From the NCBI GenBank assembly GCA_008330645.1, contig VLTN01000066.1:62001-126000 (forward strand): a stretch of 64,000 nt of DNA, read 5' to 3'. A model generated the notes under the pieces. It searched no databases. It was not told the DNA's origin and saw only the letters and a list, made by a program, of their open reading frames with translations. Numbering within the stretch: the first letter of the stretch is position 1; every line of letters begins with the position of its first letter. Shown piece after piece: positions 55,474-64,000 of this stretch. Position numbers and translations under genes: made by a program. The stretch is from Cafeteria roenbergensis (Eukaryota > Sar > Bigyra > Bicosoecida > Cafeteriaceae).

Positions 55474-56991
55474 ATGGCCCACTCGTCGTCCATCCGCTTC
55501 GGCGGGACGGTGTCAATGGGAATCACGTCTAAGCAGGCCGGAATCAAGCAGCGCGAGCAGGGCAACATTCCCCGCATGCTGGAGAGCAAGAAGCGCACCA
55601 TCGGCGTGAGAACGCGCGCGCAAGCGCAGCGGCAGAAGCACGCCGGGTCGGTCTTAAATTTGCAGCGCCTCCCTGCGCGGCGCGCTGGCACGGGGCTCAG
55701 GCCGCAGACTGCTTGGGCCGGCGTTCGCGCAAGAGAAGCCCGTTGCAGTGCTGCGGCGGAGCGCGCGGAGCAAGCGAGTCCTGCGTGCCGTCGAGGCCAT
55801 TCCTGACCCCCGCAGATTGACAGGTCGGCGCTTGACGATGCTGTCGCGATGCACGGGGCTGACGCCGAGGCGAGGGCGGCCCGCGACGCCGCAATGGGTG
55901 AGCGAGCTGTTTGCAGGTGCCACGCTGGCGCCAGTGCCGCGGAATTGGCTTGCCCGCACACCAGCACTGCGCCTTGTGCGTGTCCGCCAGTCGCGTTTGG
56001 TGTGCGCGCGTCCCTCCCAACACCCCTGTGGCGGCGATGCGCAGTGGCGGCGATGCAGGCTGCGGCGGCAGAGGCCGACGCGCGCGAGGCCGAGGAGGCC
56101 GAGCGGGCGCGCTCCGAGCTGGAAGCCCTGCGCGGGGCGTGGGAAGCGCAGCGCGACCGAGGGTCGAGGGCGGAGTGGGATCTCTCGGACCCCTCGGCTC
56201 TGAGCCGCGACCTCCCTCCGCGGGATGCCGACGGCACGCCGCTGCCGGGCGTGGGCCCGTCCAGCGGCCAGGTGTTCGAGGGCGAGCGGCTCGAGGACCC
56301 CTCTATCGACCAGGAGGCCCGCCGTCAGCTGATCGAGGCGAATGACGCGCTGCTTCGGGCCAAGGCGGCTCATGCGGCCAGCGAGCGGGCGGCGGAGGCT
56401 GCCGCTGCCGCCGCGGCAGCAGCTGCCGCCGCGGATGCGGACGCGAGGGAGGAGGACGAGGCTGCTGCGCGGCGGCGGGAGCTGGCTCGCATTGCGCAGG
56501 AGAACCGCGCGCTTGCGCGGGCGCGCGCTCTGGAGCGGGAGGCAGAGAAGCGCAGAGACGAGGAGGAGCGACTCGCGTCTCTCAAGGCGGCCAGGGAGAG
56601 TGCGATGCTGGCCGAAACCCACGGCGTGGCGGCCGGAGCTGGCGGCCGCATCCGGCGGGACCACTTCAAGGGCATGTCCCAGGAGCAGATGGAGCGCCTG
56701 CGGGCGGTGCAAGCCAGCCAGATGGCCCAGCTGCAGGCGCAGCGCGAGGCGGAGAAGGCGGCCGAGGCTGCGGCAGCGGCCACGGCCGCCGCGGTGGCGG
56801 CGGACGCCGATGCAAGGGACGCAGCGGAGGCCGAGAGGCGGCAGCAGGAGCAGCGGCAGTACCTGGCCGAGATCAAGGCTCAGCAGCGGGCCGACCGCTT
56901 GCGCAGGCAGCGGGAGGAGCACGGCCGCCGTGAGAGGTTCGATGAAACCGCCGACGGCGTCCTCTCCTGCTTCGGGAAGTCTCTTCGCTGA
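55474..56991 (+). CDS. RIB43A-domain flagellar microtubule inner protein, 3 exons
   Basis: Exons 55474-55605, 55816-55897 and 56045-56991 join in phase to 386 residues, the usual RIB43A length. Donors GTGAGA and GTGAGC; acceptors CCGCAG and GCGCAG. Family matches: AGIKQREQGNIPRMLESKKR and IDRSALDDAVAMHGADAEAR near the N-terminus, SRAEWDLSDPSALSRDLPPR, GPSSGQVFEGERLEDPS, and GGRIRRDHFKGMSQEQMERL. Nearly the whole protein is alpha-helical coiled coil rich in Ala, Glu and Arg. The end, GVLSCFGKSLR, takes the place of the usual C-terminus. RIB43A proteins line the inner wall of axonemal doublet microtubules and stabilise them. It is divergent from the CEP131-like gene. Confidence 0.9.
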
Positions 56992-57438: not shown

Positions 57439-60400
57439 CTACTGCCTCGAGGGCGGCAGACGGCTTCCGGCCGCGGCGGCGCCCCACGGGTCCTTGGCCG
57501 CCTCGTCCGCCTGGGAGGGGCGCCGGCGCCTGAGGCCGGGGGCGGGCGCTGCGCTGGAGGCTGCCCGCTCCGAGGCCCGGGCGGCCATCGTCCGCTCCAG
57601 GGTGCGCGCCGCCGCCTCGGCCAGCAACGCCTCCGTGGCGCCCTCGTCGTCGCCGGCCTCGACCCTCTCGCGAACCGTCCGCAGCATGGTCTGGCGGTGG
57701 CCCTCGCCACGGTGCCGGATGCATGGCGTGGCCGCCGTGACGGCGTAGACGACCATGGCGCACACCATCACGATGACCGCCTCCGCCTTGCTCAGCGCTG
57801 GGGACATGGTCACCATCAGTGCCATGGCCAGAATGCCCAGCAGCAGCCCTGCCTCGCCCGTGAACTGCCGAAGGCACGCGGATTCCATCGCAGCGGCCTC
57901 CTTGGCGTCGCGCGGCGGCAGGTTCAGCACCGCCCTGCCGCCCTCCAGGGACACAGAGGCGCCCTCCCCGAAGAAGTCGGTCACAGCGGCCTGGAGGAGG
58001 CTCTCCACTCCTTGCCGCGTCTCCGGCCGGAGGCGGCGCCCAGAGGGTCCCCCGGCGCCAGAGGCGGCCCTGCCACCGGCTCCGGCCCGGCCCTCAAGCA
58101 TGGCGGCGAGGGCCTCGCTCTCCATCCGAGCGGCGGCGTCGCCACCCACCCATCCCTCCTCGCCGTCCGCCTCCTCCTCTGCCCGCTCCAGCGCTGCCGC
58201 AGCCTCCTCTGCCGCCCGCCGCGCCGCCTCCGCCTCCGCCCGGCGCCTCGCCTGCGCCTCAGCCAGCATGCGCTCCTCCGCCGACTCCACCCGCAGGAGC
58301 CGCCGCTGGGCGGACCCGACGGCCTCGCCGCCCTCCGTCACCAGCGTGAGCATGTGCGCCACGGAGCTGCGATCGTCGCCCCGCTGGCAAATGTCCTCCC
58401 GCAGCGTGGGGCCCAGCGGGGGCTCGATTCCCCCGCCGGCAGCTTCCGGGACAGAGGACGCCTTGGCAACGGCCACAAGGCGGGTCTCCGTCTCAACGGC
58501 CCCGGAGGGCGCCTGTCGGGCCCGCACGGCAAAGAAGGGCGCGCTCTTGCCGGCGTCGCCGTGGGGAACGAGGCGCCAGTTGCCGTCGAGCATCACGCGC
58601 CACTGGTGGGCCAAGGCTGCGCCAGATGCGGGCCCCCGCATGTCCCAGCGCAGGCTCCACGCCGTGTGGTGCATGGTGATACTGCCCCCCCGCGGGGGGG
58701 AGAGGCGTGCCCGCAGGAGCGCCGCCAGCCGCGGCGAGACGCCCTCCAGCGCCGCCTCGATCGGCTGCGATCGACCGGCGTCCACCTGCCAGCGACCCGA
58801 CAGGTCCAGCAGGTCCAGCGAGGTCCGGGCTCTGCCAGCGCCGGCCCCCACGACAGAGCTGAGCTTGCTGGAGAGGCGGGACGGCGCGAGCGAGCGGGCA
58901 CCCTCGTCGGTGCCGGGGCTCCCCACGCTGCTGGCGGCTGCTGCGCCGCTGGTGTCGGACCCGGCCGCGTCGGCGGCCGCTGCCTCCGTGGGCGCCGCCG
59001 AGGCCTCGGACGCCGCACTGACCGTGCCCTCCGCTCGGCGGAGCGCCTCCGCCTCCGCCTTCTCCAGGCCCTCCAGCGCGGAGTTGTCCAGGAACCGCAG
59101 CTGGTGCGCCGCCGGTGTGCTCCCGTACTCCCCGGGTCCGAAGCCCCTGCGCTTCGACTTGGCCCCTGAGGAGACGGGCTTGAACACGCGAACGGTCGAA
59201 CGGGCCCGCCGGCCGTCGTTCACCGACTCTCGCACCTCCACCACCACCACCTGGCTTGGGAGGAGCGACTCCGTCACGATGGCACCCTCAGGGCTCTCAG
59301 CCAGAATGCCCTTTGTAGCCTCGCAGGCCGTGACGGCAGACGACAAGTCCTCCGTGTCGGCCTCGTTGGCTGAAGCGGAGGACGCGGCTGCAGCCGCGCC
59401 GCCCCCCCGGTCGGACCCGCCGCCACCGCCGCCACCGCCGCCGCCGCCGCCGCCGCCACCGCCGCCGCCACCGCCGCCGCCGTGGCTGGCCTCGCGGATG
59501 GCCTTCATCGCCCTCGCCCGGGCCCCGACCTGCCAGCCGCGAACGGCCACCTCGCCCTTGTCGGACGGCTTGCACCGGCAGCGCCCGTCCAGGATGACCA
59601 TAGACCGCGAGTCGCCGTAGGAGGTGCGGTCCACGGTGCACCACACGCCGCCGGCCCACTCCCCAGCAGGCCGTTCGTCGACGTCCTCGCCCGCCTCCTC
59701 CAGCTCCTGGTCGGTGGGAGGCCCCACCGGCCGGTGGTGGGCCTCAGTCGTGACCTCCAGGTTCGCCACGGTGCTCCTTGCAATCCCTGCGGACGGGGGC
59801 GCGCGGCACTAACGGCTGGGGGCGATGGTGAGCCGATGGGGGTCTCGTGGGGGGAGGGGGGAAGTGCGGGAACGGCTGGCGGCTCTGCTCGCAGCTCTGC
59901 TCGCGGCTGGCCGGCGGGGTCAATCGACCGGCTCACAGGGCACTCCCAGCGCCTCCAGCACGCCGTGGGGCGGGTCTCCCGCCTTCTTGTCGACCTTCCA
60001 GGTCCCGGACTGGTCCCACTTCGCCCTGGGCATGTGCTTCGAGGCGGCAAGTGTCCGGCGCGCTGCTGCGACGTCGGCCTCCGACGGGGCCTCGCCGCGG
60101 GGGGCCGCCGGGCTGCTCTGGCGGCCAGGAGCGCCGGCCCCTGCGGGAGCCGCCTCCCCGGGCGCCGTGGCGACCGTGCGGCCGAGCGATGCCCACTGCG
60201 CTGCGAGCGACTCCCTGGCCGCCTGCTCTGCGGCCTCGGCGGCAAGGCGCTCCCCCTCGTCCTCCAGCTTCGTGTAGAAGATTACGGCCTCGTGACGCGT
60301 GTCGCCTGCCTTGAGGACGCGCGTAGTCTGCGAAGCGGGTGCGCTTGCAAGCGAGCGAGCGAGCGTGCCGGCGGGAGGGGCGGTTGCGGCAACCGCGGCA

Positions 60401-61005
60401 GCCCCAGCGGCGAACCGAGCACGAGGAGCAGAGCGTGGCGCGCCACCACGACACCAGCAGCGCTCTCGCCACGACCGGGGCGGAGCCGGGCGCCTGCGCG
60501 CGCGCCAGCCGGGACTCCGGTGCGCCCCGCCGATGACGCTTCGGGGCGCAGCGGCCGACGCGGCGATGCGCCCCGAAGCCAACTGCTGCAGACTCACTTG
60601 CTTCATCCGGGTCCGGGACACGAGCTCGCGGCGGTCAACGCTGGTCAAAGCGCGCTTTTGCCAGGCAGTTTCCACAACCACGGCCTCGTCCTCCTCTTCC
60701 CACGCCTTCACTAGCACCTGCTCGCCCGAGTTGACCTTCTCACGGACGATTCCGTCAAGCAAGTGCGTCTCTGTCAGGGTCCCCATGCTGGCAATGGTCT
60801 CAATCATGAGGCGGGTGCGCGAGTGCTCAACTTGGAGCGTCGTGACCACGTTGCCCATCAGGAAACGCGCGAAGCCGCCAACTCCCAACGCCTCCATCAG
60901 CGCCGCGCGATCGCTGCTCGTCGAGGTGTCCATGACCCACCTGCCGGACAGGTTGCGAATGGCGGGAACGTCGTCGTCATGGTCCTCGCCGTGCTTGGCG
61001 GCCAT
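57439..61005 (-). CDS. Protein with three FABP/lipocalin-like domains and C-terminal membrane segment, 3 exons
   Basis: Exons (minus) 60598-61005, 59937-60327 and 57439-59786 join in phase to 1048 residues. Each domain opens with the calycin-type signature G.W..D: LSGRWVMDTSTSSDRAALME (residue 19), QSGTWKVDKKAGDPPHGVLE (about 243) and LSGRWQVDAGRSQPIEAALE (about 595). They are followed by ALGV and a basic residue, as in fatty-acid-binding proteins. Domain 1 goes on with VEHSRTRLMIETIASMGTLT and VVVETAWQKRALTSVDRREL in FABP strand order. Domain 2 is interrupted by a run of about 24 Gly. After domain 3 come an Ala/Glu helix and a hydrophobic pair (GLLLGILAMALMVTMSPALS, AVIVMVCAMVVYAVTAA) near residues 905-950. 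Likely a lipid or hydrophobic-ligand binder held at a membrane; this role is inferred. Confidence 0.75.
59416..59485. repeat. GGC/CCG trinucleotide run encoding poly-Gly
   Basis: About 24 nearly pure ccg/cca triplets on the plus strand encode a run of glycines in the minus-strand FABP-like protein. It lies inside the second ligand-binding domain as a loop insertion. Confidence 0.9.
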
Positions 61006-61547: not shown

Positions 61548-64000
61548 ATGGACGGCAGTCCCTCGCCCGGGTATTTCGCGGTTAGCGACATGTTCGCGGC
61601 ACGAGAGTGGCTCCCCGCCGGCAACGTCGACAACCAGGTGTCTACGGCCTTTGCCGTGCTGCTCTTTCTGGTGTGGAGCGCAACTTGCTTCGCTCGCCGG
61701 CGCAACTCTGCGTTCCTCAAGGTGAGACACCCCGGCGCAGGCCAGGTCGCTTGCGCTGCCGCCGCCGCCGTGCCGGTGCGGACGCCCCTGTCTGGCCGCG
61801 CAGTCCACGCGTAGTGCAAGGGGGCTGCGCGTGAGCGGAGATCCCCACTGGCGTGCGGGTGCCACGCAGCGCGGGCTGAAGCGCTTGCCCGGCGCTTCAC
61901 GCGTCGCTGAGCAGGAGCTGCCTCTTGCGTTGGTGCGCGCAGGCCCGCATGTGGCAGCTCGTCCTCCTCCAGACGTTCGCCCTCTACATGAACATGGCCG
62001 TGTCCGTGCGCAAGGAGCTGGTCGCATTTTGGTTCTGCTCGACCGAGGCGCCGGCGCCGGGGCTTGAAGGAGCGATGGCAGCCATCTCAAGCCAGCTGCG
62101 CCTGCCGTGGGAGACCGTGCTGTCCGTAGACGAGTGCACCTCCGAGGCAGGCCTGTACACCACGCATGGGGACTCGTGGACCACGTACAGACCGCCAGAG
62201 ACGGCCAAGACCTTGTCCCTAAAGTCCTCGCAATGGCAAGCGCCGTTGTCTTGCGCCTCCCGTGTCATCACGCCAGAGCTCAGCCTCGCGAACTCCAGCG
62301 TTGCGCACGCGATCGGGCAGTTTCGGCCCTTTTCAGCGCTGTTTTTGCGAACCCGGAACGAGGACGAGGCCGCGCGTTTGACCGAGGCAGCGGTGCAGAT
62401 TCGCACGGCCGACGAGAACGGGGTGACGGCGCTGCGCTTCGACCACCAGCCAACGCAGACGACGTCGTCTACGCGCTTTGCGCTCTTCGCGGACAACCCG
62501 ATGCAGGCAACGGCCGGGCTGGTGGACGGGGTGTTCTACAGGCCGACGTGGTTCCACTGCGCGTCGCGCCAAGGCCTCGACGTGCGCCGGGCGGAGCAGG
62601 ACTGCCGCGTCGACATCGTCATGTCTACGGCGTGCGCGGGGCTCATCTTCTCCGTCATTCTCATGCGAATGATGCGGCTTGCGGACCTGGCCGAGATCCA
62701 GGGGAGCGCCAGCGAGGAATGGACGTCGCGTGCGGACGCTGAGCGAACCCGCGTCCTGCGCAAGCGAAGCGGGGGCTCACTCTGGATGCAGCTTCGCCGG
62801 TTTTTGCACCTGCAAATCGGCCCCTTCATCCTGAACATGACCTTTCTGGGCACAAGCTACTTGCGCGGCAGCTCTCCCTGCGACGCTGGAGAGCTCGCCA
62901 CGTGGTTCTCCTTCGCCGTGGTGCTCTGGTTCCTCCCCTCAATCATCTCCAAGGGCGTGATGCGAATATCGAGCTTCCGGGAGTCGCTGGGCATGCGCAC
63001 CGAGGTGCTCGCTCTCTCGGCGGTGTCCACAGTGTCCGTCTTTGCGCCGTCGGCCGCGCGCCAATTGCTGTTTGAGTTCGCAGTGGGGGTGGCCTTCGTG
63101 CGAGCGCTGCTGTGCGCCATGGGCATTTTCGCCTCTGCTGCTCTGCCAGCGCATTGGGCGGCCGTGGAGGTGTGGCAGCGGCGTGGTCGGTGGGGCGACG
63201 GACGGCAGCATCGGGGCCGCGGCAGCGGCCGCCGAGGCGCTGGCCGGTGTGTTTGGCAGGCCGCGGCCACCGTGACGATTCATGTCCTTGCCTTCCTGGA
63301 CAACTGCCTCTCCCCCTTCGTCTTGCTCTTCGGCTGCTCCGTGTCCCTGCTGCGCTGCTGCTTCTCGGCTGGGAGTCGTGCAGCGTCGGCTCGCGGCGGA
63401 AAAGCACCCTCCGTCGAGTTTGACCTTGGGACAGACTCCGTCGCGCATGCTGGAGCCCGTTTGTCCCCAAGCAACCGCCCCCGACAGACAGCGGCCGACG
63501 GCGGCGACTCGTCGCTGTGGGGACGGATAGCGACCGGCGGCGCAGCGGCGGGCTCCCCCACCCCCGGTTCGGTCAACCAGGGAGCTGCCTCCCAGGCGCT
63601 GCTGCTCGAGTCGGTGCTCAGGCACCCCAGTGCCCGGACGCACCTGCTGCAGGTAAGCCCTCCGCTCCGTCGCGCGCCTCGCGTCCCAGGCCCCTCGCGC
63701 GCTGCCTCTGCGATGATCCGTGCCGCCAGCCGCGCGACCGCTCTCGCCGCGAGAGGCGCCTTCCACCGCCCTCGCAGCACCTCCGTCAGGAGTTTTGCGT
63801 GGAAACGGCCCTGTTCGTGCTGGACGTGTGGCGTCTCAACGACGACGTGGAGGTCCACGATGACGACGTGCCCGAGGCGGCAGCTCGCATCTGGACGACC
63901 TACATTCGGGCCGGGTCCGAGCGGTGGGTCAACCTCAGCTCCATGGCGGTCAGCCGCGTGTCACGGGAGCTTCAGGCTCTCAACGAGGCCGGGCTTGCGC
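61548..64000 (+). CDS. Multi-pass membrane protein with RGS domain, partial (runs off right edge)
   Basis: Exons 61548-61721, 61943-63652 and 63790 onward join in phase with no stop; donors GTGAGA and GTAAGC, acceptors GCGCAG and CGTCAG. The N-terminus MDGSPSPGYFAVSDMFAARE precedes helix 1 (STAFAVLLFLVWSATCFA). A helix MWQLVLLQTFALYMNMAVSV follows, then a 180-residue Cys-containing region probably outside the membrane, then five or six helices, such as VMSTACAGLIFSVILM and WFSFAVVLWFLPSIISKGV. After the last helix LLLESVLRHPSARTHLLQEF begins an RGS domain, continuing ETALFVLDVWRLNDDV and AARIWTTYIRAGSERWVNLS. RGS domains speed GTP hydrolysis by G-alpha, so this is a receptor-like regulator similar in plan to plant AtRGS1. 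Bases 63165-63260 read as basic text and may hide a further intron. Confidence 0.75.

Follow-up and report, generated by a model that had tools for sequence, protein, structure and literature searches.

A predicted membrane-tethered protein with three FABP-type domains in the flagellate Cafeteria roenbergensis

Fatty acid-binding proteins (FABPs) are well-known cytosolic fatty-acid carriers. A gene of the marine, unicellular flagellate Cafeteria roenbergensis raises the question of whether such barrels can also be strung together on one membrane-anchored chain and, if so, what that chain would do. The gene lies at positions 57439 to 61005 (minus strand) of a 64,000-nucleotide stretch of DNA, hereafter called the window (GenBank assembly GCA_008330645.1, contig VLTN01000066.1, positions 62,001 to 126,000 of the forward strand). 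Here, we report a computational analysis of this gene, which encodes one predicted protein with three mutually related domains (W1, W2, and W3). We favor, with some reserve, a reading in which three FABP-type barrels are separated by long linkers and tied to a membrane by a hairpin, most likely as a tethered carrier of fatty acids or other lipids.

Related domains in the protein and its paralogues

The three domains, with a low-complexity run inside the second, are placed as follows.

60259..60957, minus strand: W1, FABP-type domain, amino acids 17 to 159, interrupted by intron 1
59167..60018, minus strand: W2, FABP-type domain, amino acids 240 to 473, interrupted by intron 2, with an insert rich in poly-Gly/Ala
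59416..59481, minus strand: poly-glycine run within W2, amino acids 369 to 390 (22 Gly)
58282..58809, minus strand: W3, FABP-type domain, amino acids 593 to 768, the most diverged copy

Linkers of about 80 and about 120 residues separate the barrels. The pattern G.W..[DE] occurs at three sites in the 1048-amino-acid protein, all of them G.W..D (amino acids 21, 244, and 597), which is well above the background of nine G.W..D in 93,885 amino acids (all six-frame open reading frames of the window of at least 100 amino acids). A sequence-only reading of the window had described these three openings, each followed by an ALGV-type turn; the openings stand, and the turn departs from ALGV in the third copy, which reads LEGVSPRL. 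That reading had also proposed a comparison of the segments with each other, in which shuffled sequences scored as well in 0 of 500 cases for W1-W2, 5 of 500 for W1-W3, and 9 of 500 for W2-W3.

A search of the whole genome assembly (36,303,456 bases, 167 contigs) for relatives gave a total of at least four predicted genes of FABP type, which together encode at least eight of these domains. On contig C4, an open reading frame of 2287 amino acids (C4:138226-145086, minus strand; the gene start may differ from the start of the frame) carries three FABP-type domains, C1 to C3, after a weak START-like stretch. On contig C67 (L020:5420-7254, minus strand), two single-domain FABP-type genes, A and B (153 and 155 amino acids; three predicted exons each), stand in tandem; they are 52% identical over the domain and are the simplest family members found in the genome. 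Locus L006 from contig C66 gave no profile match, and weak matches at C59, C18, C35, and C4:597660 were not accepted as relatives. A scan that finds close relatives only, run over viral contigs, gave 3 pattern matches with W1 as the query and 48 with the query A10, and over bacterial and archaeal contigs 96 with paralogue A; none was confirmed.

Comparison through the C4 paralogue tied all three window domains to the same group: for W1-C1, W2-C3, and W3-C2, 0 of 500 shuffles each scored as well. Leave-one-out profiles recovered W1 at 41.7, W2 at 46.2, and W3 at 16.3 bits; the highest scores among 200 shuffles of each domain were 5.6, 10.0, and 5.7 bits. A profile built from C1 to C3 only scored W1, W2, and W3 at 46.1, 47.2, and 16.1 bits, and one built from W1 to W3 only scored C1, C2, C3, A, and B at 29.0, 21.6, 36.5, 12.0, and 7.9 bits, with 0 of 500 shuffles as good in every case. 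The Gly run of W2 and a low-complexity insert of C1 were shortened for the shuffle tests, the leave-one-out profiles, and these cross-profiles.

The C4 paralogue resembles the window protein in its three domains of one family and in the match of C3 to W2 over an exon junction; it differs in having no comparably hydrophobic hairpin (best Kyte-Doolittle value, 1.65), and the best matches by Z are not collinear (W1-C1, W2-C3, and W3-C2; ranked by raw score, C1 comes nearest to W2). Its START-like stretch (PF01852, 16.7 bits, E value of 0.0049, below the cut-off of 22) fits a lipid theme; against PDB, the stretch gave two matches at an E value of 0.46, neither of them a START protein. The N-terminal part of the same frame has a weak match to Arb2 (E value of 0.0036, below the cut-off). 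A and B are like the window gene in family and in introns (GTGAG..CGCAG or GTGCG..CGCAG) and unlike its product in having one barrel each and, by eye, no membrane segment.

Gene model

The exons and introns, all on the minus strand, are as follows.

60598..61005, minus strand: exon 1, amino acids 1 to 136, from the ATG to the donor GTGAGT; an acidic N-terminus, short and lacking a hydrophobic signal, followed by the larger part of W1
60328..60597, minus strand: intron 1, 270 nucleotides, GTGAGT...CGCAG, phase 0
59937..60327, minus strand: exon 2, to the first base of codon 267; the last strands of W1, an Ala/Glu linker, and the opening of W2 (..SGTWKVD..LEALGVP)
59787..59936, minus strand: intron 2, 150 nucleotides, GTGAGC...CGCAG, phase 1; falls within W2, at the P/W boundary of LGVPW
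57439..59786, minus strand: exon 3 with the stop codon; the rest of W2, W3, an Ala/Glu-rich stretch, the hydrophobic hairpin, and a basic tail

The interval is exactly one coding sequence, with its ATG at 61005 and its stop at 57439. The joined exons (61005-60598, 60327-59937, and 59786-57439) give 1048 amino acids with no internal stop, in agreement with the single path of three phase-matched exons seen in the sequence-only reading; upstream of 61005, the same frame holds no further Met before the preceding stop. GC content by codon position (first/second/third) follows a coding pattern in exons 1 to 3 (0.64/0.43/0.82, 0.76/0.62/0.86, and 0.75/0.62/0.88) and is not coding-like in introns 1 and 2 read in the same frame (0.76/0.83/0.71 and 0.70/0.82/0.74), in a window of about 0.67 to 0.77 GC. 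Exon 1 matched at 154.8 bits a profile that has W1 as a member.

The length of intron 1 is a multiple of three and its in-frame stops number 0, so frame alone would permit its retention; spliced W1 scored 41.7 bits versus 34.1 for intron 1 read through. Retention (60328-60597) would put a 90-residue insert into W1.

The link between exons 2 and 3 decides whether there is a triple-domain protein at all, as exons 1 and 2 could be one gene and exon 3 another, mistakenly joined. The exon 2 frame does run into a stop soon past the donor, and exon 3 sits within a long open reading frame of its own. The two pieces are nevertheless complementary at one point of the domain: in a profile that includes W2, the exon 2 piece covers model positions 1 to 27 and the first exon 3 match starts at 27. 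A profile built without W2 gave the spliced domain 46.2 bits against 18.8 and 17.9 for its halves (best of 200 shuffles, 10.0), and the C4 paralogue reads through at the matching spot, where C3 is unbroken (MGVPWFLR). Donor and acceptor are good, and the codon-position GC content of the intron speaks for splicing as well. Because the paralogue domain is unbroken and spliced W2 outscores its halves, the join is backed, as had been claimed before, and homology answers the question in favor of one predicted gene. The two-gene model is highly improbable, and we rejected it on the complementarity of the domain over the junction.

Family assignment and structure predictions

Which family the domains belong to was asked with profiles against PDB, where families were named for the best 60 matches of each list; chains called ReP1-NCXSQ, Der f 13, myelin P2, or "Lipid Binding Protein" were grouped with the FABP family, to which we take them to belong. 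A joint profile (A, B, W1, W2, C1, and C3, with W3 and C2 left out) matched 231 sequences at E values of ≤1, the best at 6.2e-11 and spanning model positions 3 to 126 of 147, most of the barrel; the best 60 of the 231 were all FABP-family. A six-domain profile (W1 to W3 and C1 to C3) gave 126 sequences at E values of ≤10 (best, 2.2e-5), of which the best 60 were all FABP/CRABP-family, and its trimmed form gave 135 (best, 1.6e-4), with the best 60 again FABP-family. Paralogue A alone found 108 sequences, the best being liver FABP at 8.2e-5 and the best 60 FABP-family; A also passes the PF00061 cut-off of 23 bits at 24.3, and B stays below it at 17.9. A profile of A and B recovered W2, C1, and C3 (0 of 500 shuffles as good for each).

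Several results pull the other way. The profile built from W1 to W3 only had no PDB match at E values of ≤10; W1 alone had two PDB matches, the best at an E value of 0.033, neither of them a FABP; and Pfam (PF00061) assigned neither FABP nor lipocalin to the window protein, nor to W1 to W3 and C1 to C3 taken singly; NCBIfam gave no match on these six domains. The A and B profile missed W1 (35 of 500 shuffles as good) and W3 (25 of 500) and was marginal for C2 (4 of 500), and the pairs W1-B (97 of 300) and W3-A (121 of 300) stayed at chance level. Structure prediction of the segments, proposed in the sequence-only reading, was run with AlphaFold2 (AF2) on two of the three, the exon 1 part of W1 (without the last strands) and W3, from two-row alignments of the window sequence. 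The mean predicted local distance difference test (pLDDT) values were low, at 43.4 and 39.9. Foldseek placed CRABP-II at ranks 1 to 13 for the W3 model, at an E value of 0.088 at best and a template modeling score of ~0.3; for the exon 1 model of W1, it returned unrelated folds (best E value, 1.5) and no FABP. A FABP barrel has ten strands, with two short helices between strands A and B. The W3 model (pLDDT, 39.9) follows this order, with one strand, a pair of helices, and nine further strands, and that of W1 (pLDDT, 43.4) has the helix pair after the G-x-W strand. The models, unreliable in their tertiary structure, lend weak support to a FABP fold.

With no Pfam match to the window domains, membership is transitive, via the paralogues in the same genome. 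We nonetheless consider that the domains of the window protein very probably belong to the FABP family, on profile evidence that is good through these relatives and weakest for W3. That they are instead classical lipocalins or another calycin family is very improbable. PF00061, which A passes, spans lipocalins as well as cytosolic FABPs, and so leaves room for this assignment; the best 60 matches in each of five PDB lists were, however, FABP-family with none named a lipocalin, and in the low-confidence models the G-x-W strand leads straight into two helices, which is the FABP arrangement. We rejected classical lipocalins, none being named among the best 60 matches of the PDB lists. The earlier description of the domains as FABP/lipocalin-like can be narrowed to the FABP branch (joint profile, 6.2e-11), as opposed to classical lipocalins.

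Ligand-anchoring residues

In FABPs, the ligand carboxylate is bound by a triad, Arg106, Arg126, and Tyr128. The strand-H Arg column of the joint profile aligns with an Arg of a 14-kDa FABP chain (1vyf), and it holds Arg in W1 (at amino acid 126), C1, and C3, Ser in W2 (Ser440) and B, and Thr in A. For C2 and W3, which this profile leaves out, another alignment gives Arg in C2 and Gln in W3, beside an insertion, so that four of the eight domains have the Arg. The C-terminal column was aligned among the domains of this genome only, and there the Arg at the R-x-Y place is kept in seven of eight, the exception being W1 with Ile152. Two residues on, W1, W2, C1, and C2 have an aromatic residue and W3, C3, A, and B have Leu, so that the place reads Ile152/Tyr154 in W1, Arg466-x-Phe468 in W2, and Arg761-x-Leu763 in W3 (where residue 762 is also Arg). 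These columns suggest that binding of anionic ligands is retained in at least some copies.

C-terminal hairpin and topology

The features between W3 and the end of the protein are as follows.

58156..58278, minus strand: Ala/Glu/Arg-rich presumed helix, amino acids 770 to 810 (sequence judged by eye)
57730..57849, minus strand: two hydrophobic segments, a predicted membrane hairpin, amino acids 913 to 927 and 936 to 952
57442..57729, minus strand: C-terminal tail, amino acids 953 to 1048

Kyte-Doolittle windows of 19 residues exceed 1.6 only within amino acids 907 to 957, where two peaks (maxima of 2.04 and 2.19) flank a short polar turn; the hydrophobic hairpin noted earlier near the C-terminus is thus borne out. 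Membrane attachment of the protein through this predicted hairpin is likely. The tail is mildly basic (17 K/R versus 13 D/E in amino acids 957 to 1048) and, taken with the N-terminus without a hydrophobic signal, places both ends of the protein probably in the cytosol. The C-terminal 203 residues matched only themselves in the genome.

Proposed function and alternatives

Each barrel would hold a single fatty acid or a comparable lipid. On the evidence of the N-terminus without a hydrophobic signal and the basic tail past the hairpin, the barrels would face the cytosol; being tethered, they would not diffuse freely but could load and pass on lipids nearby, at a single membrane or across a narrow gap. 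The lipids could plausibly be fatty acids from digested bacterial prey. Lipid carriage as the main role has, in our judgment, an even chance or slightly better.

The barrels could, on the other hand, be derived from FABPs and no longer carry lipids, serving as structural or protein-binding modules of a membrane protein after binding was lost in some or all copies. The triad, incomplete in every window domain (no C-terminal Arg in W1, Ser at strand H in W2, Gln and an insertion in W3), counts for such a loss and against lipid carriage, and the strong divergence of W3 (16 bits) and the large poly-Gly/Ala insert of W2 fit it too. The C-terminal Arg position, kept in seven of eight domains, argues for retained ligand anchoring, as does, for a lipid role, the possible START domain of the C4 paralogue (below the cut-off), and we regard loss of carriage as rather unlikely. 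A membrane-tethered lipid sensor, in which barrel occupancy would alter the interactions of hairpin or tail and signal lipid state with no movement of lipid, would make use of several barrels that differ in their residues on one anchor, as these could report several ligands. Pfam found no signaling domain in the window protein, which counts against a sensor; that it found no enzyme or known output domain is neutral. We think this role improbable. The earlier guess at a membrane-tethered carrier or sensor is reasonable. The tethered carrier remains the reading that we favor, and its form suggests a mode of moving lipids that could be rebuilt in vitro, with the single-domain paralogues A and B as an easy entry to binding assays.

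Neighboring genes

The convergent neighbor (55807-56991, plus strand) encodes a RIB43A protein (PF05914, 7e-31); RIB43A is a flagellar microtubule protein. On the other side, a divergent reading path (61548-64000, plus strand) has a possible ATG at 61548, 543 bases from the ATG of the gene under study. Judged by eye, this path carries several hydrophobic segments and resembles a channel; its long open frame had no Pfam match.

Comparison with known systems

Passages of a 2019 paper give the range of the FABP family as animals only, with no FABPs yet reported from protists (PMC6646235), and the origin of the family is placed, in passages of two other papers, after animals split from plants (PMC3483278) and from plants and fungi (PMC3796463). 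Part of a further paper describes a protein of Leishmania donovani, LdBPK_281800.1, with PX, FYVE, FABP2-type lipocalin, and AGC kinase domains (PMC10341546), so that, by this partial account, FABP-like domains do have a precedent in protists. A search of open-access papers in narrow wording, which does not establish absence in print, found no description of a tandem or multidomain FABP; nothing apparently related was found on FABPs in stramenopiles. On balance, we suggest that FABPs are not an innovation of animals and that the family occurs in stramenopiles, through early-eukaryote inheritance or gene transfer, where it may have been built into multibarrel, membrane-tethered, lipid-handling chains beside free single-domain carriers. 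The presence of at least eight FABP-type domains in four predicted genes of a bacterivorous flagellate makes the question of FABP origin directly testable.

As far as it is described there, the Leishmania protein is like the window protein in being a protist multidomain chain with a FABP2-type domain beside membrane-targeting modules (PMC10341546); compared by that description only, it is unlike it in having a single such domain together with kinase and phosphoinositide-binding domains. Nematode FABPs such as As-p18 likewise depart from the plain cytosolic form, by extended loops according to part of one paper (PMC6646235); unlike the window protein, As-p18 is a secreted single domain. Animal FABP/CRABP proteins share with the window domains the G-x-W opening, the GV turn followed by Arg, and the strand-H Arg (in four of eight copies). 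Three barrels per chain, a membrane hairpin, a poly-Gly insert, and a protist host set the window protein apart from them, and in place of the single cytosolic domain of ~130 residues that is usual in the family, it has 1048 amino acids, three domains, and the hairpin. The single-domain form is a feature of the known members and not of the fold, and we therefore file the predicted protein as a variant of the FABP family.

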